From: a virus
Length of the DNA stretch: 29,040 nucleotides
Reading direction: 5' to 3' (one strand)
Virus record (IMG/VR): IMGVR_UViG_3300048672_000951
Span: 1 to 29,040 of that record
A program made the position numbers and the translations under genes. The first letter of the stretch is position 1. The number at the start of each line of letters is the position of its first letter. Of the stretch, positions 8,546 to 21,280 are shown one piece after another. Below the pieces are notes generated by a model that did no database searches, was not told where the DNA came from, and saw only the letters and a program-made list of their open reading frames with translations.

Positions 8546-8775
8546 CTATCACCCTGGAAGACACCCCCGCAGGCGGTGTCTCCATCAAGACCGATTTCAC
8601 CCCCGCCATTGGCCAACCCTGCAGCGCCGCCCAAGCCGCTGCACTGGACATCATTGGCCGCACCAAACGCGAATGGGGAATGACCCCCACCGGCACCAAA
8701 TCCCCATTGCTGGCCGAGGTTGATATCGATGCCGTGCACCGCACCCGCGACCATGTTGTAGGAGCCGCACTGTGA
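8533..8775 (+). CDS. Conserved hypothetical early protein
   Basis: 80 aa, overlaps the previous gene by 13 bases, with GGAG upstream of ATG 8533. Begins with a beta-hairpin-like PRITITLEDTPAGGVSIKTDF and then a helix (SAAQAAALDIIGRTK). This layout recurs in early operons of related phages. No function known. Confidence 0.65.
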   Translation: MPRITITLEDTPAGGVSIKTDFTPAIGQPCSAAQAAALDIIGRTKREWGMTPTGTKSPLLAEVDIDAVHRTRDHVVGAAL

Positions 8776-9155
8776 ACCTCACTCTAGCCACACTCCCAGT
8801 ACTCAATTCCCCTCTTGAAAACGGCACCTTTGCCGGCCTGACCACCCGCCCCGATGGAACGCACTGCGCGGTCGTATTGCTGCCTGCGCACATAAGCAAC
8901 ATCACCTGGAAGAAAGCTATCGACTGGGCTGCAGAACAGGGAGGCGAGCTACCCAGCCGCCCAGTGGCCTCCCTGCTGTTTGCCAACGTCAGAAGCCTGC
9001 TCAAAAGCGACTGGCACTGGACCCATGAGGTCTATAAACACAACGCCTCCTACGCCTGGGGTTGCGGCTTCGGCGACGGCTACGTCGGCAACGACCGCCA
9101 CGAGAGCTTTGAGGGCTCAGCCGTTGCCGTCCGCTTGATTCCCATCACCGCTTAA
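8772..9155 (+). CDS. DUF1566/Lcl-like protein with variable C-terminus, copy 1
   Basis: 127 aa from GTG 8772 (GTGA overlap, TAGGAG upstream). C-terminal residues resemble the C-type-lectin-like DUF1566 fold: TWKKAIDWAAEQGGELPSR, WHWTHE, NASYAW, and a closing SFEGSAVAVR. Between SYAW and SFEG lies a 15-codon window (9060-9104) that differs strongly from copies 2 and 3. Its body is only a diverged relative of the other two, and the N-terminus is shorter, yet the last 84 bases including the intergenic gap are identical to those of copy 2. Ligand and role unknown; the fold is inferred from motif pattern. Confidence 0.8.
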   Translation: MNLTLATLPVLNSPLENGTFAGLTTRPDGTHCAVVLLPAHISNITWKKAIDWAAEQGGELPSRPVASLLFANVRSLLKSDWHWTHEVYKHNASYAWGCGFGDGYVGNDRHESFEGSAVAVRLIPITA

Positions 9156-10148
9156 TCCTTCAATCCTTTTTTGTCACTGGAGCCAACTATGTCCGCCATC
9201 ACCCTTGAAGCCATCGAGGCCAAACAAACCGAACTCAGCCAGCTCATTGCCAAGTTCAAAGAGCAGCCCAAGCCCACTGTCACCTACATCGAAATTGAAG
9301 GAACCACCATTGCACTGCAACCAGGAGAGCGCTATGCCGGTGTGGTGCTGGACAGCGATGGAGACATTGTTAGCCACCTGGTCGTAATGGCCCAGCGCCC
9401 CGATAAGAAATTGACATGGCAGGCCGCTATGGATTGGGCCGAAAGCATTGGCGGATCACTGCCCGATCGTCAAGAGCTATCCCTGATCTTTGCCAACTGC
9501 AAACCGCACTTGGAAGCCGCATGGAACTGGTCCCATGAAACCCATGCAGATGACGCCTCCTACGCCTGGCTTTGCTACTTCCGCGACGGCACCATCGGCC
9601 ACGACCACAAGAGCTTTGAGGGCTCAGCCGTTGCCGTCCGCTTGATTCCCATCACCGCTTAATCCTTCAATCCTTTTTTGTCACTGGAGCCAACCATGTC
9701 CGCCATCACCCTTGAAGCTATCGAGGCTAAGCAAACTGAACTCAGCCAGCTCATTGCCAAGTTCAAAGAGCAGCCCAAGCCCACTGTCACCTACATCGAA
9801 ATTGAAGGAACCACCATTGCGCTGCAACCAGGCGAGCGCTATGCCGGTGTGGTGCTGGATAGCGATGGAGACATTGTTAGCCACCTGGTCGTAATGGCCC
9901 AGCGCCCCGACAAGAAATTGACATGGCAGGCCGCTATGGATTGGGCTGAAAGCATTGGTGGGTCACTGCCCGACCGTCAAGAGCTATCCCTGATCTTTGC
10001 CAATTGCAAACCGCATTTGGAAGCTGCATGGCACTGGTCCCATGAAACCCATGCAGACGACGCCTCCTACGCCTGGTATTGCTACTTCGGCTACGGCTAC
10101 ATCCTCAGCTACCTCAAGAGCTTTGAGGGCTCAGCCGTTGCCGTCCGC
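9104..10148 (+). repeat. Tandem 507-bp repeat with conserved 3' block
   Basis: The segment 9104-9187 (end of copy 1 plus spacer) is identical to 9611-9694 (84 bp), and 9611-9641 matches 10118-10148 (31 bp). Copies 2 and 3 align along their whole length at a constant 507-bp offset. The repeats could expand or shrink by recombination. Confidence 0.9.
9189..9662 (+). CDS. DUF1566/Lcl-like protein with variable C-terminus, copy 2
   Basis: 157 aa from ATG 9189 (GGAG at 9179-9182; an in-frame TTG at 9171 is unlikely). N-terminal helix (EAIEAKQTELSQLIAKFKEQ), then a lectin-like domain: TWQAAMDWAESIGGSLPDR, WNWSHE, ASYAW, SFEGSAVAVR. The variable window is 9570-9608, between TGG and AAG codons. Body nearly identical in protein to copy 3. 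Such domains in other phages are binding proteins diversified by retroelements, usually on tails; here the gene is in the early operon, so its binding partner is unclear. Confidence 0.82.
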   Translation: MSAITLEAIEAKQTELSQLIAKFKEQPKPTVTYIEIEGTTIALQPGERYAGVVLDSDGDIVSHLVVMAQRPDKKLTWQAAMDWAESIGGSLPDRQELSLIFANCKPHLEAAWNWSHETHADDASYAWLCYFRDGTIGHDHKSFEGSAVAVRLIPITA

Positions 10149-10157
10149 AGCGTCTGA
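9696..10157 (+). CDS. DUF1566/Lcl-like protein with variable C-terminus, copy 3
   Basis: 153 aa from ATG 9696. Same architecture as copy 2, offset by exactly 507 bases. Before the variable window there are 17 base differences from copy 2: 16 silent third-position changes and one Asn-to-His. In the window (10077-10115) eight of 13 codons differ, all at positions 1 or 2. The end is different: after the shared GCCGTCCGC it closes in Arg-Ser-Val instead of the longer LIPITA tail. Confidence 0.82.
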   Translation: MSAITLEAIEAKQTELSQLIAKFKEQPKPTVTYIEIEGTTIALQPGERYAGVVLDSDGDIVSHLVVMAQRPDKKLTWQAAMDWAESIGGSLPDRQELSLIFANCKPHLEAAWHWSHETHADDASYAWYCYFGYGYILSYLKSFEGSAVAVRSV

Positions 10158-10191: not shown

Positions 10192-10341
10192 ATGCTCAGC
10201 CATCAGGGTGAGTGCAAGTCTGTAGCGGATTGGGCGCGTGATATTGGCATCAATGCCAATGTCATCCGGCAACGCCTCTATCTCGGATGGGATACAGCAC
10301 GGGCACTCACCACACCCGTTATGAATCGAGGTCACAAATGA
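10192..10341 (+). CDS. 49-aa HTH-like protein
   Basis: From ATG 10192 (a stop lies just upstream, so no longer version exists; the ribosome site is weak). The sequence SVADWARDIGINANVIRQRL then LGWDTARALTTP matches the small DNA-binding module (WARExGIxxxxIxxRLxxGWxxxxALTTP) often seen at the ends of phage HNH or regulatory proteins. ATGA overlap with the next gene. It may be a stand-alone relic or a small regulator. Confidence 0.65.
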   Translation: MLSHQGECKSVADWARDIGINANVIRQRLYLGWDTARALTTPVMNRGHK

Positions 10342-10550
10342 CCCGCCGCAAGACCGTGCATGTGGCACTCAGCCGCCTGCAAGATATGCCCACAGCCGAT
10401 CTGCACCAAAGCGCCAACAGCTACTTTGGCCTGCTACGCCAAGCCACCCATAGCCACCACGACCGCACCCGTATTGCCAAGCTCATGCTGCAGCGTGGGC
10501 ATGTGGTCAAGGGTGACTTCACCAAGATTTATAGGAGGAAATCGGCATGA
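10338..10550 (+). CDS. Hypothetical His-rich early protein
   Basis: 70 aa, ATGA coupling at both ends. Basic, with HQSANSYFGLLRQATHSHHDRTRIAKLMLQRG, predicted helical. Not recognised. Confidence 0.6.
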   Translation: MTRRKTVHVALSRLQDMPTADLHQSANSYFGLLRQATHSHHDRTRIAKLMLQRGHVVKGDFTKIYRRKSA

Positions 10551-11215
10551 CCAAGAGCCGCGGCATATTGCCACCAAAGATATTTTGGACCGATGCTGAA
10601 AAGGCACTCGTGATCCAGCTCTACCCCAACACTAAGAATTCTGAAATTATCCGCATCCTCGGACGCCATACTGAAAAGTCTGTCTGGGGCATCGCAAAGA
10701 AGTTGGGTGTTAAGAAGTCGCCAGAGTATCTGCGTGTGATGGGTGGCTACCTTGATGGCCACCGGGGTGCACAGAAGAGATTTCAACCAGGCCATACACC
10801 ATGGATCAAGGGAAAGAAGCTGCCAGGCTGCACAAGTTCCACCAGCTTTGTAAAAGGCCAGCGCCCTTCAAATTGGATGCCCGTCGGGTCTCACCGCGTT
10901 AACTCAGAAGGCGTACTAGAGCGCAAGATCAAGGAAGGCAATAACGGCGCGCTGAATTGGGAAGCTGAGCACCGACTGGTCTGGAAGGAAGCCAATGGCG
11001 CTATCCCCCGCAATCACTGCATCGCTTTCAAGCCGGGTCGCTTCACCAACAAGCTTGAGCTCATCACGCTCGATGCCATCCAGTTGCTCAGTCGCAAGGA
11101 ATTAATGCTGGAAAACAGCATCTGGAAAAAGAGTCCCGAGCTTGCACAGCTGTACCAACTCAAAGGACAAATCACCCGCCAAGTAAATCGAATTAAGGAG
11201 TCACAAAATGCGTAA
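10547..11215 (+). CDS. HNH_3-type endonuclease with N-terminal HTH
   Basis: 222 aa, preceded by a strong AGGAGG. N-terminal HTH of the GcrA/SANT type (FWTDAEKALVIQLYPNTKNSEIIRILG). The C-terminal half carries an HNH_3-like core: EAEHRLVWKEANGAIP, HCIAFKPG, then KLELITLDAIQLLSRKEL. This combination is common for free-standing phage homing-type endonucleases. Base composition is more AT-rich than its neighbours, which suggests separate acquisition. It is nonetheless coupled to both neighbours (ATGA before, 8-base overlap after). Confidence 0.82.
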   Translation: MTKSRGILPPKIFWTDAEKALVIQLYPNTKNSEIIRILGRHTEKSVWGIAKKLGVKKSPEYLRVMGGYLDGHRGAQKRFQPGHTPWIKGKKLPGCTSSTSFVKGQRPSNWMPVGSHRVNSEGVLERKIKEGNNGALNWEAEHRLVWKEANGAIPRNHCIAFKPGRFTNKLELITLDAIQLLSRKELMLENSIWKKSPELAQLYQLKGQITRQVNRIKESQNA

Positions 11216-14182: not shown

Positions 14183-15234
14183 TCAAGCAGCTGGGTGACA
14201 AACGCGAGGCCGTGGTCCACGGCGTGCGCACCACCTATACGTTTGACCAGGCAGCAGCCCACTACGTCAGCCTGCATGCCGACAAGGCATCGATCGAGAC
14301 CGAGATTTACATGCTCACCAGCGTCATGCCCTACATCGGCACACTCGCGCTGCACCAGGTGCACGATGGCACGCTCGCGCCCTTCCAGACCGCAAGGTTG
14401 GCTGAAGGGCGTGCACACAAGACCATCAACTTGGCGCTGGGCGTAGTGCGCCGTATCCTCAACCTGGCGGCTACCAGCTGGCGGGATGAGAGCGGCAAGA
14501 CGTGGCTGGAGCAGGTACCCAAGATCACACTGCTACCCCTGGTTGGTCACCAGCGCGAACCGCGCCCGATCACCTGGGGCGAACAGCGCACCCTGCTGCC
14601 CAAGCTGCCAGACCACCTGGCACGCATGTCGCTGTTCACCTTGAACACTGGCGTGCGTGATGACGTGGTCTGCAGTCTGCGGTGGGAGTGGGAGATCAAG
14701 GTGCCCGAGCTCGGCATATCGGTGTTCGAGGTGCCACGGGAGCACGTCAAAGGGCGCAAAAAATCGCGGGTGGTGATCTGCAATAGTGTGGCGCAGTCGG
14801 TCGTTGAATCTGTACGTGGCCAGCATGAGGACTACGTCTTTGTGTACCGGCGCGAACGGGTAAAAAACACCGACAAAGCGCCCAAGATGCCCTATCGACC
14901 CATCGGGACCATGAACAACACCGCCTGGCAGACAGCACGCAAGGCCGCTGGCCTGGGCGATCTGCACGTGCACGACCTGCGCCACACCATTGGCATGCGT
15001 CTGCGCGAGGCGGGTGTGGCCGAGAGCACTATCTCCGACATCCTGTGGCACAGCACCAAGACCATGACCCAGCACTACAGCGTGGCGCAGATCGTGGAGC
15101 TGCACCAGGCGCTGGAGAAAGTGAAGGACGACGCAGGCCGGTGGAACAAGAGCCTGGCGACTCTCAGGCGTGAGCAAGAAGCGGCACTTCGGGAGGCCAC
15201 TCCCGCAAAAGTCCCGCAGGTGAAAGTAGCGTAG
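14056..15234 (+). CDS. int: Tyrosine integrase
   Basis: 392 aa from ATG 14056 (AAAGGAG eight bases upstream). An Arm-binding-type N-terminus (IYPQKNGLWQVDK), a core-binding domain and a catalytic domain with R201 (NTGVRDD), a Lys near 235 (KGRKKSR), H306-x-x-R309 (HDLRH), H332 (WHSTK) and the nucleophile Y341 (QHYS). All catalytic residues are present. Forty-four bases after its stop lies the att core made of tRNA-Arg, and an 18-bp repeat found again beyond the core lies inside its last codons. It integrates and, with the excisionase, excises the phage. Confidence 0.95.
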   Translation: MGQNTRGIYPQKNGLWQVDKWKWSTRFFQRGFESYDEAERWLIKQLGDKREAVVHGVRTTYTFDQAAAHYVSLHADKASIETEIYMLTSVMPYIGTLALHQVHDGTLAPFQTARLAEGRAHKTINLALGVVRRILNLAATSWRDESGKTWLEQVPKITLLPLVGHQREPRPITWGEQRTLLPKLPDHLARMSLFTLNTGVRDDVVCSLRWEWEIKVPELGISVFEVPREHVKGRKKSRVVICNSVAQSVVESVRGQHEDYVFVYRRERVKNTDKAPKMPYRPIGTMNNTAWQTARKAAGLGDLHVHDLRHTIGMRLREAGVAESTISDILWHSTKTMTQHYSVAQIVELHQALEKVKDDAGRWNKSLATLRREQEAALREATPAKVPQVKVA

Positions 15235-15386: not shown

Positions 15387-15491
15387 GCACTGTATTGCGC
15401 TGACTTTTGAGGGTCACTCCCGCAAAAGTCCCATGTGTCATTCAAATCTCAAAAATAGGAATACTGTATGCTTTTGCAGTGTATTGCACTG
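15387..15491. repeat. Imperfect 16-bp direct repeat beyond the att core
   Basis: GCACTGTATTGCGCTG at 15387-15402 and GCAGTGTATTGCACTG at 15476-15491 (two mismatches). The second is also an inverted repeat (CAGTG-TATTG-CACTG). Likely protein-binding sites for excision/integration or an operator of the next gene. Confidence 0.5.
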
Positions 15492-18268: not shown

Positions 18269-18292
18269 AAAAAAAGCCGCTGGTGGGCGGCT
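18269..18292 (-). terminator. Terminator hairpin before the lysis genes
   Basis: AGCCGC (18275-18280), loop, GCGGCT (18287-18292), then a T7 tract on the minus strand. It shares AAAAAAGCCGCT with the hairpin at 21281-21304. Confidence 0.8.
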
Positions 18293-18333
18293 TGGTGATC
18301 TCGTGGTATGTTTCTAAAAAAAGGGATGGATCG

Positions 18334-19263
18334 ATGAAAATAATAATTTTTATACTGATGGTTGCAGCATTAACTTCTGCTTGTGGTGGGGGTGATACAC
18401 AAACCAGTGCTGCGCCGATATTAGCTACCCCAATAATTCCTGAAAATATTGCCACTTGGGGAGACTCGCTTACCGCTGGAGACGGCGGTACACCTTACCA
18501 AAATCAACTTGCATTGCTGCTTCCCAATCGGACGATCCACAACGGTGGCGGATCTGGACAGGGTTCGACCAGCATTGCCGTTCGTCAAGGCAGCATCCCC
18601 CTTCAAATCTCAGTGACAGGAGACGTCATTCCCGCAATAGGTGAAGTAAACCTGACATCCACGACTGCAAAGACTGGTACGTTCAACTACCGAGACCCCG
18701 GAAAACTTTTTGGCACGTTGTCTGGAGTTCACGGATACATTGAACGAATCCCCAATCCAGACTCGGCTATCACGGCGCTGCGCTTTATTCGTGATGATCA
18801 AGCCGGATCGAATACTGCGTCGCCCGGCAATAGCACTTACACCGTTGACACTCTTGGCCGCGACAGTTGGATCAATATTTTCTGGATGGGGAATAACAAC
18901 ATCCCCGATTCGACAACCGTTAAGAGCGACATCGCCACTGCAGTTGGGTTTCTCAAAGCAACCCACAAGAAATATATTGTTATGTCCATCACGAACAACA
19001 GTTCGCGGATTAAAGGCACTGCTGATTACCAAATCATCATTGACCTGAACCAATACCTTGCGACCCGATATCCTGACAACTATTTGGATATCCGCTCTTA
19101 CCTGGTCAGCCAGTATGACCCCACCAATTCCCAAGATGTTCTCGACTTTCAAAACGACCTCACCCCATCATCTCTGCGTGTCGATGGAATCCACCTAAAC
19201 ACTAAGGGATATGGATTAATTGCGAAGCGAATTTCAGAGTTCATACTGGCTAAAGGCTGGTGA
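18334..19263 (+). CDS. SGNH/GDSL hydrolase lipoprotein (moron)
   Basis: 309 aa from ATG 18334 (AAGGGA upstream). Signal sequence with lipobox LTSAC (Cys17, Gly at +2, so outer-membrane sorting expected). SGNH blocks: WGDSLTAG (Ser44), GGGSGQGST, GNNN in place of the usual GxND, and DGIHLN near the end with the catalytic Asp and His. It is the only plus-strand gene in the late half, more AT-rich than its neighbours and opposed to the tail fibre gene (4-base gap). Probably an esterase removing acyl groups from a surface polysaccharide, made in lysogens. A TGGTATGTT extended -10-like element near 18305 may drive it. Confidence 0.82.
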   Translation: MKIIIFILMVAALTSACGGGDTQTSAAPILATPIIPENIATWGDSLTAGDGGTPYQNQLALLLPNRTIHNGGGSGQGSTSIAVRQGSIPLQISVTGDVIPAIGEVNLTSTTAKTGTFNYRDPGKLFGTLSGVHGYIERIPNPDSAITALRFIRDDQAGSNTASPGNSTYTVDTLGRDSWINIFWMGNNNIPDSTTVKSDIATAVGFLKATHKKYIVMSITNNSSRIKGTADYQIIIDLNQYLATRYPDNYLDIRSYLVSQYDPTNSQDVLDFQNDLTPSSLRVDGIHLNTKGYGLIAKRISEFILAKGW

Positions 19264-19267
19264 TTTT

Positions 19268-21259
19268 TCAAATATCAGCTGATGCACGAACTATCCCCGC
19301 ACCAGTGGAAAGTACCCATGCACCCTTACCCTGAACAATCGTGAACTGAGCTGGCCCGAACGCTGTTCCAGTCGCATCAACTCCCCGCACATCCAGAGTA
19401 AATGCCCCCGTAGTTGTATTGCGAACAAACCACAGTTTCGGCGTAAAGCCCTGAAAGTAGACTGTTCTAGCGCTAGTCAGTACCCCGGAAAACTCAAGCA
19501 CTTGCGCAGTAAGCCTTGTGTCATTTTTCAAGTTCATTGCACCTGTTCCCGATACATCAATGGTGCTGTATCCAGAACCCGTATGGAATAGTGAACCCGC
19601 TCGCACTGGGTCTTGCGTAGATGCATTTCCCGTCTGCTCCTGGTAAGGCGATGGTGTAATGAAACCCCAGAACGGCCACTTTGCAATATAGATACCGATT
19701 GCACGTTTTGCCTGAGTGTCAAAGTGAATGCCATCACCAACCCATCCAGATTTTTGGCGAAGAAGTGCGGGATTAGTTGGGTCACGCACTACCTTGTCCA
19801 GATCGAGGACTAAATCAAACGTCTGCTTTATCCACAGGTTTAGCGCTTGACGCATTGCCTCATAAGCAGTGTTTGCTTGAATGCTTGATGTAGGTGTACA
19901 GGTGCAAATAACTGGAGTCATACCGTCAGTTACGGACTGATCTCGCATCCACAAAATATCTGTCTGAATATCAGCAAGCAACCTGCCTTGCACGATGTCA
20001 TTGATGCCGCCCTGAATGATGGCGTGTGATGCATTCACGGCTAACGGAGTCATGTCCGTAACCCAACGTGAACGCATATTTGCTGTAGTGTTTCCACCTA
20101 CGCCACGGTTGAAGAAGGGCACGTTAAGTTGGCCTTCTGCCCATCGCGTCCATTCAGTGGATGATGCAAGATCAACACTACCAGCAGCGCCTTGCACAGT
20201 GGAATCACCAATAACTGCAACACCCATTTTTGTTGCATCAGGAACTTGCTCAATCATGAACCCGCCAATGCGTAGATCAATTGATACTGAGCTGCGATTC
20301 AATGCGAACCAATAAGGATCATTGTTTGGGCCAGCGCCTAGTGCTACCGCTGGGTTAGGCATTAAATCTAACTTCCCAGTAGTGGTGGCCTGTGCGAGTG
20401 CCCAGATACGCCTTACAGTTCCATCTACCAAACGTGCGTTGTGGCCGTTATCTCCACCGGCAGATAGGTTTCGCATCCATACAAATTTCTCAGTGTCCCC
20501 AACGCTTAAAACATAGCAAGAAATTAGGTATTTCTTTCCAGCCGTTAAGATAACTCCAGTTCCTACTAAATTTGCATTAGATGCAGAGTAAAAATTACTC
20601 CCATATATCCTTTGCATCAGGATATTTTTGAAAGTCACCGATCTTGTTGTGTCCTTCGTCGCATTGATGACGCTCATATTTGTAATATTTGTCGAATACG
20701 AAATCAAATTCCGAATCGCACCAAGCTGCAAATTCCCATTGATATGCAATGCACCATTGCTATAGCCAAGGCCGATTGAATCCTGCAAATAGTTGAGTGG
20801 CTGTAAAAGAAAAGCGGGGTCTTGTGAAAGATCAGTCAAACCGGAATCTAGGTTTCGCAACTCAGCTTGTAATTGAATAGATGGAACTCCTATTCCCAAT
20901 GGCTGATAGCCAACCAATGTTGCACCGGTTGAAGATGCCAAATCTTGCTCAATAACACCTTGGTACACGCGCCACTTGCTTGCAGTGTCAGTTGCAAATG
21001 CTGCACTGGAGGTATGCGAGACAATACAGACGTACCAGGTGCCCGCATTGCTCACCAAGTCTTTGATCAAGTAGAGGGTTGCAGTGACCCATGCCCCCCG
21101 GTTATTGATGGCCGCAAGGCCACCAAGTAAACCAGCCATAGTTGCTTTTGTTGTGCCCAGTCGATCTGTTGATGTAGCCAATGTAGACGTAGCAATTTCA
21201 GCAATATGGTCTACATCCAGCTTGGCATTTTCCAGGTCAGCAATAGAAATTCCGGTCAT
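19268..21259 (-). CDS. Tail fibre/spike with SGNH hydrolase domain
   Basis: 663 aa from ATG 21259 (weak GAAAGAA upstream; TTG 21280 possible). The N-terminal 130 residues (LENAKLDVDHIAEIA, GTWYVCIVSHTSSAAF, WRVYQGV) are a phage fibre attachment region. A beta-rich part follows, then an SGNH domain: VIGDSTVQG near 350, GVGGNTT, QGGIND near 420 and DGIHFDT near 510. The C-terminus is a short beta-rich cap. It probably removes O-acyl groups from the receptor polysaccharide during adsorption. AT-richer than the tail genes upstream. Confidence 0.88.
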   Translation of the reverse strand: MTGISIADLENAKLDVDHIAEIATSTLATSTDRLGTTKATMAGLLGGLAAINNRGAWVTATLYLIKDLVSNAGTWYVCIVSHTSSAAFATDTASKWRVYQGVIEQDLASSTGATLVGYQPLGIGVPSIQLQAELRNLDSGLTDLSQDPAFLLQPLNYLQDSIGLGYSNGALHINGNLQLGAIRNLISYSTNITNMSVINATKDTTRSVTFKNILMQRIYGSNFYSASNANLVGTGVILTAGKKYLISCYVLSVGDTEKFVWMRNLSAGGDNGHNARLVDGTVRRIWALAQATTTGKLDLMPNPAVALGAGPNNDPYWFALNRSSVSIDLRIGGFMIEQVPDATKMGVAVIGDSTVQGAAGSVDLASSTEWTRWAEGQLNVPFFNRGVGGNTTANMRSRWVTDMTPLAVNASHAIIQGGINDIVQGRLLADIQTDILWMRDQSVTDGMTPVICTCTPTSSIQANTAYEAMRQALNLWIKQTFDLVLDLDKVVRDPTNPALLRQKSGWVGDGIHFDTQAKRAIGIYIAKWPFWGFITPSPYQEQTGNASTQDPVRAGSLFHTGSGYSTIDVSGTGAMNLKNDTRLTAQVLEFSGVLTSARTVYFQGFTPKLWFVRNTTTGAFTLDVRGVDATGTAFGPAQFTIVQGKGAWVLSTGAGIVRASADI

Positions 21260-21280
21260 ACGTTCTTTCGTAGTAAACAA

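Follow-up and report, generated by a model that had tools for sequence, protein, structure and literature searches.

The three tandem genes at positions 8772 to 10157 of the virus record IMGVR_UViG_3300048672_000951 are, in all likelihood, the target array of a diversity-generating retroelement (DGR) whose machinery is gone apart from a remnant of the reverse transcriptase (RT). We base this reading on sequence comparison: the template repeat (TR), Avd and an intact RT are absent, while a fragment of an HNH gene, an RT stub and the usual downstream HNH gene are present. The window analysed is the whole of that IMG/VR record, a linear fragment of 29,040 b that represents an incomplete contig without head genes; the array and the features that follow it are all on the + strand. 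Target gene 1 (8772..9155) is an ORF for a C-type-lectin-like DGR variable protein of 127 aa, a short form without the N-terminal helix, and its orthologues adjoin Avd-TR-RT in about 20 contigs. Gene 2 (9189..9662; 157 aa), encoding an N-terminal helix and a C-type lectin fold, is a tandem duplicate of gene 3 (9696..10157; 153 aa), whose tail after VAVR is unlike that of genes 1 and 2, a divergence that parallels the RT-proximal target gene of relatives. The units of this 507-nt duplication (9098..9604 and 9605-10111) are 94% identical, and because the breakpoint falls inside a variable repeat (VR), it probably arose by unequal recombination between VRs. Of the codon changes between genes 2 and 3 outside the variable window, 16 are synonymous and 1 is non-synonymous (two altered C-terminal codons being excluded from the count), as opposed to 0 synonymous and 8 non-synonymous changes inside it (Fisher P = 8e-6).

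The original prediction, made from the letters of the sequence, held that each gene contains a variable window between TACGCCTGG and AGCTTTGAGGGC, that 10 of 13 aligned codons vary among the three copies at positions 1 or 2 only, and that the third base is constant throughout; coordinates, flanks and codon pattern were all confirmed, with some corrections of detail. The first window is longer by one codon than the other two (spacing 510 vs 507), the extra codon being located in the AAC run, and an 11th variable codon (GAG/AAG/AAG) lies immediately 3' of windows 2 and 3 as originally drawn. The last slot reads CGC/CAC/CTC or CAC, so that its template must be CAC rather than AAC; CAC occupies this slot in the TRs of relatives as well. 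The variable repeat cores accordingly span 9060..9104 (15 codons, including the one extra AAC-type codon and AAG>GAG), 9570..9611 and 10077..10118. Each is followed by an invariant 3' part (9105..9134, 9612..9641 and 10119..10148), 30 nt that are identical in all three copies, occupy the position where an IMH element is expected, and are homologous to the 3' parts of relatives' TRs. The extra AAC-type codon of the first VR is perhaps a product of slippage in AAC runs during reverse transcription. One-codon length differences like that of 9060-9104 also occur in L055, L104, L124 and L127.

A template that accounts for these windows is present in the nearest relative by gene tree (L026, on the same contig as L059), where a TR upstream of the RT reads AAT TGC AAC TTC AAC AAC GGC AAC ATC AAC AAC AAC CAC AAG AGC. 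Its core matches, except for CAC in the last slot, the template that had been deduced from the codons, AAT TGC AAC TTC (AAC/AGC)x2 GGC AAC ATC AAC AAC AAC AAC. With this relative's TR standing in for the phage's own, windows 2 and 3 each differ from the core at 11 sites, 11/11 at adenines (P = 7e-6 each), and window 1, after removal of its extra codon, has 13 mismatches, all at A. TR/VR pairs with A-only core mismatches, the TR lying just upstream of the RT, were recovered in 31 of the 34 related loci tested; because the finder was built to seek A-biased pairs, it is the layout of the cassettes and the scarcity of core changes at bases other than A that carry weight. On the MAG contig L006, two homologous target genes are followed by Avd (above the bAvd cut-off), TR and RT (RVT_1, E 8e-14), two further scans returned additional loci in which tandem target genes precede Avd and RT, and the same target family is carried by phages Magia, Shewanella QDWS and others. 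The TR/VR pairs and complete cassettes of these relatives support the DGR-type origin first proposed for the windows, and support their assignment as VRs of a Magia-type phage DGR, in which tandem small C-type-lectin target genes are followed by Avd, TR and RT.

Magia itself (L007) offers a close comparison, in that its target genes are likewise small and lectin-fold and its DGR block, like the present locus, lies on the integrase side of a temperate phage; Magia retains Avd, TR and RT, whereas in this record nothing but an RT stub accompanies the target genes. The genome announcement calls the system a potential DGR and names genes 47 and 57 only (PMC7883833). Magia has a third target in gene 46 (L007:11995-12459), which carries the annotation hypothetical and whose core departs from the Magia TR at A sites only. 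EBPR siphovirus 1 gp4 (L009:1937-2350) belongs to this target family too and has a VR-like window; its 54-kb record, like the present one, has no RT, but the gene is present in one copy and no stub was seen beside it, compared with three copies and an RT stub in this record. Among the database entries, OK094664.1 (Shewanella phage vB_Sb_QDWS) and OP650936.1 ('Hujiaoplasma phage zrk29-1') are both 47,902 long and gave identical match statistics despite unrelated stated hosts; one of the two host labels is probably wrong.

The lectin-like fold that had been predicted for the targets was borne out by structure modelling. An AlphaFold2 model of the gene 2 protein has a C-type lectin fold (pLDDT 93.8), with the Lcl C-terminal domain 8q4e as top Foldseek match (E 7e-5) and Z of 12-13 to 8oks and 8q4e. 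The Legionella Lcl and Bdellovibrio Bd2740 domains are the closest structures among the matches listed, and Mtd and TvpA are not among the 50 PDB matches listed. The score against Lcl_C / DUF1566 (PF07603) is 29.4 bits, below the Pfam gathering cut-off of 34.9; despite this, the model supports kinship of the target proteins with that family. The variable residues (128-141) sit in the last beta-hairpin region of the model, and the VR lies at the C-terminal end of the C-type lectin fold.

Of the template and RT, for which a search had been proposed at the outset, both were found in the loci of relatives and neither in this record. Only the three VRs match when the whole 29,040 b are searched for a TR, RVT_1 is absent, and there is no Avd, the sole ORF between gene 3 and the RT stub being the HNH fragment; the relatives' Avd passes the bAvd cut-off. 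The record therefore has none of the components of a complete functional DGR (an RT with YxDD, a TR near it, Avd). Homology to the relatives' last target gene extends past gene 3 to about 10180, after which a predicted 49-aa HNH fragment (10192..10341) occupies the place of Avd-TR-RT. It is the C-terminal DNA-binding part of a homing-type HNH endonuclease, lacks the HNH catalytic motif, and is 65% identical to the C-terminal region of a 220-aa HNH-type ORF in L066; phage HNH endonucleases have this region near the C-terminus. The stop of this fragment and the start codon of the RT stub share an ATGA overlap. The stub (10338..10550) comprises the last ~68 codons of a DGR RT, equivalent to residues 305-372 of the L006 RT. 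Its DNA is 87% identical to the 3' end of the L006 RT gene (over 204 nt) and 82% identical to L059, and the catalytic YVDD (RT residues 245-248) is lost. Its reading frame is uninterrupted by stops or frameshifts; relative to L006, 14 codon differences are synonymous and 6 are non-synonymous. Directly after it comes a predicted HNH_3-type endonuclease gene (10547..11215; HNH_3 E 0.0023, below the Pfam cut-off), whose product is 70% identical to that of a gene at the same RT-HNH junction in L052, where the RT is intact. In all, about 1.5 kb (Avd, TR and RT residues 1-304) has been replaced by about 0.16 kb. We infer that this loss was recent, which fits both the uninterrupted RT stub and the identity of the three VR tails. 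Neither an exact 30-mer of the VR tail nor an exact 26-mer of the HNH/stub junction occurs in another viral contig of the set searched, outside which records very near this one may fall. In 399 Burkholderiales genomes the inferred TR found its best match in the MAG of L006 (85%), followed by three weak partial matches, none of them clearly this phage's own TR, and a plasmid search gave no match.

To place this loss in context, a profile search of IMG/VR returned 313 related stretches, and the best 80 of 313 were taken as loci. RT-bearing loci number 52, and 25 rows, this record included, have no intact RT downstream (22 distinct, as three pairs are near-identical contigs); four loci that were truncated by contig ends or had an RT at another place on the contig (L095, L097, L112, L115) were set aside from the RT-less count, and L083, L090, L093, L096 and L130 are ambiguous for RT status in the same way. 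Roughly a quarter to a third of the arrays sampled are thus without an intact RT. Stubs or fusions of Avd or RT remain at the syntenic place in L054, L055, L058, L065, L066, L074, L081, L088, L089, L098, L117, L121 and L123, as well as in this record. In a tree built from the target-gene scaffold with the VR removed, which is weak because it has few columns, 19 changes of the RT-less label are counted (16 once the ambiguous loci are dropped), at least 7 of these changes being forced by well-supported branches, and RT-less labels are no more clustered than in shuffles. Loss of the DGR core therefore recurs in this phage family, the RT-less arrays being scattered over the gene tree.

The vacated place is often taken by HNH genes. 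Among the 25 RT-less loci, 10 have an HNH gene or fragment no more than 1.7 kb past the last VR, compared with 2 of 52 RT-bearing loci that have an HNH of the same two kinds anywhere within 6 kb (Fisher P = 1e-4), a contrast that is partly circular for six loci, because the profiles were built from those RT-less loci themselves; the independent matches are this record, L088, L089 and L096. In seven of the ten (L065, L066, L080, L096, L098, L117, L121) the HNH starts right after the target gene, and in L066 and L121 the HNH-type ORF runs into the last RT residues (TKIYRKK, TKTYRIK). The cleanest case is L098, where, relative to its sister L105, a 0.47-kb HNH gene replaces 1.6 kb from the stop of the last VR to the RT 3' end, between flanks that are 88-89% identical. 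L088 has the identical RT breakpoint (L105:8041/8042) and a different 5' boundary, Avd being kept in L088 and not in L098, which suggests either that the 3' part of the RT has a favoured site for cutting or insertion, or that the two descend from a common ancestor. From these junctions, we read the HNH-occupied sites as candidates for intronless homing, or for HNH insertion followed by deletion, and infer that homing endonucleases may have displaced the DGR core. Beside HNH genes in RT-less loci, the ORFs at L066:6968-7783, L121:7289-7948 and L089:6488-7513 are, judged by eye, candidate members of the phage Ash family.

Our overall account, which we consider likely, is as follows. Avd and RT would formerly have transferred TR sequence to the VRs while randomising the bases at A, and mutagenesis would have gone on after the duplication of genes 2 and 3, since their VRs differ at A sites only and their scaffolds almost only synonymously. 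An HNH homing endonuclease gene would then have invaded the RT region, either through cleavage repaired from a relative that carries HNH or through an insertion and a subsequent deletion, and the invasion would have removed the mutagenesis core and left the lectin genes as a fixed repertoire of three putative binders, an outcome presumably reached many times in this phage family. Against the role given to HNH in this account, all that this record has of the gene at the vacated place is a C-terminal fragment, and HNH is absent from many RT-less relatives, so that plain deletion also works here. Several RT-less loci without HNH (L054, L055, L058, L123) have deletions, and plain deletion is therefore a second route of loss; moreover, HNH genes are found elsewhere in RT-bearing relatives too. 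It is a real possibility, short of being probable, that the DGR origin and loss are as described but that the core went by simple deletion, with HNH genes merely frequent lodgers. Invasion by HNH is favoured over this by the concentration of HNH at the vacated place, by the clean replacement in L098 vs L105, and by the L088/L098 breakpoint, shared in spite of different 5' boundaries.

An unlikely alternative to loss is that the array is still active, with TR, Avd and RT supplied in trans from the missing part of the phage, another prophage or a co-infecting relative. As the record is only a contig fragment and its head genes are absent, an RT could lie elsewhere in the phage or host; VR tails are identical in all three copies; two relatives, L095 and L115, have their RT several kb from some of their VRs; and target genes remote from the RT are known in Treponema denticola (PMC4891356). 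The A-signature is also sharp in RT-less relatives: in VR cores extracted by an HMM-based method, differences at positions 1-2 and position 3 stand at 324:6 in RT-less and 1222:11 in RT-bearing loci. However, the RT stub sits at the syntenic place with the usual downstream gene after it, which argues that a resident RT was lost, and RVT_1 is absent from 19 of 19 RT-less records searched, which reach up to 66 kb; whole-record searches of 26 records found an intact RT only in L095 and L115, both among the loci set aside. VR tails are, in addition, about twice as diverged in RT-less as in RT-bearing loci (14/224 vs 24/880 codons, P = 0.02, near-identical contigs being counted separately). A sharp A-signature combined with more diverged tails fits either many young losses or activity in trans.

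It is less probable still that the junction of the third VR, HNH fragment and RT stub is an assembly chimera and that the real phage has a complete DGR. Assemblers can be confused by VR/TR repeats and no second record with this junction was found among the contigs searched, but both ends of the junction lie outside VR/TR repeat sequence, the HNH fragment runs into the stub ORF through an ATGA overlap, and equivalent HNH-RT-stub junctions occur in L065, L066, L098, L117 and L121. We give equally little credence to a more speculative variant, in which HNH and DGR core would be alternative cassettes of one locus: HNH enzymes with specificity for conserved RT/TR sequence would displace the RT time and again, and the form with HNH and tandem VRs would itself be functional, diversifying lectins by break-induced VR recombination between co-infecting phages rather than by mutagenic reverse transcription. 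Finally, an origin without any DGR, through ordinary diversifying selection or through recombination between paralogues, as might be considered for lectin-like proteins, which are often under diversifying selection, is hardly conceivable given the unchanged third position in 13 codons, the restriction of all changes vs the template to A, and the orthologous loci with complete DGR cassettes.

The mechanism behind the windows is the known DGR mechanism. Its prototype is Bordetella phage BPP-1, in which A-directed mutagenic retrohoming from TR to VR diversifies a protein with a C-type lectin fold, with Avd as accessory. The loci described here resemble the BPP-1 DGR (PMC3091744, PMC8144416) in the A-directed TR-to-VR signature within a C-type lectin fold and in the Avd of relatives' cassettes; they differ in that BPP-1 has one target, the tail protein Mtd, while this record has three small stand-alone proteins outside the tail operon, which indicates that phages diversify such lectins outside the tail as well. 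Persistence of VR-bearing target genes without a DGR core has a precedent in Treponema denticola, where isolates are reported to have orphan target genes without RT and TR (PMC4891356). Those orphans are on bacterial chromosomes, and the passages considered describe no RT stub or HNH replacement, whereas here the loci are in phages, and the place vacated by the core repeatedly contains RT stubs and HNH genes. In the open literature we found no report of recurrent DGR core loss in one phage family, nor of homing endonucleases or HNH genes replacing the DGR core, and the present loci point to homing endonucleases as agents of its removal. DGR surveys usually start from the RT, and target genes without one are therefore easily missed. 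DGRscan allows for target genes in contigs without RT (PMC4159848). Recent activity was estimated for 50-75% of DGRs, highest in viruses, by Roux et al. (PMC8144416). Our survey suggests that phage hypermutation machinery is often lost and that RT-less lineages are young, since RT-less arrays lie at tree tips and retain the signature; given frequent loss and young RT-less lineages, selection for RT retention might be measurable directly.

Two further features of the record were observed away from the array. Judged from ORF translations only, 18283-19263 encodes an SGNH-type esterase with a lipoprotein-like N-terminus, and the tail-fibre-like protein beside it (19268-21280) is also SGNH-like; Magia has an annotated SGNH esterase in its tail/lysis region. 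Just past the integrase gene there is a 30-nt near-repeat (83%) at 15186-15215 and 15403-15432, possibly related to an attachment site.
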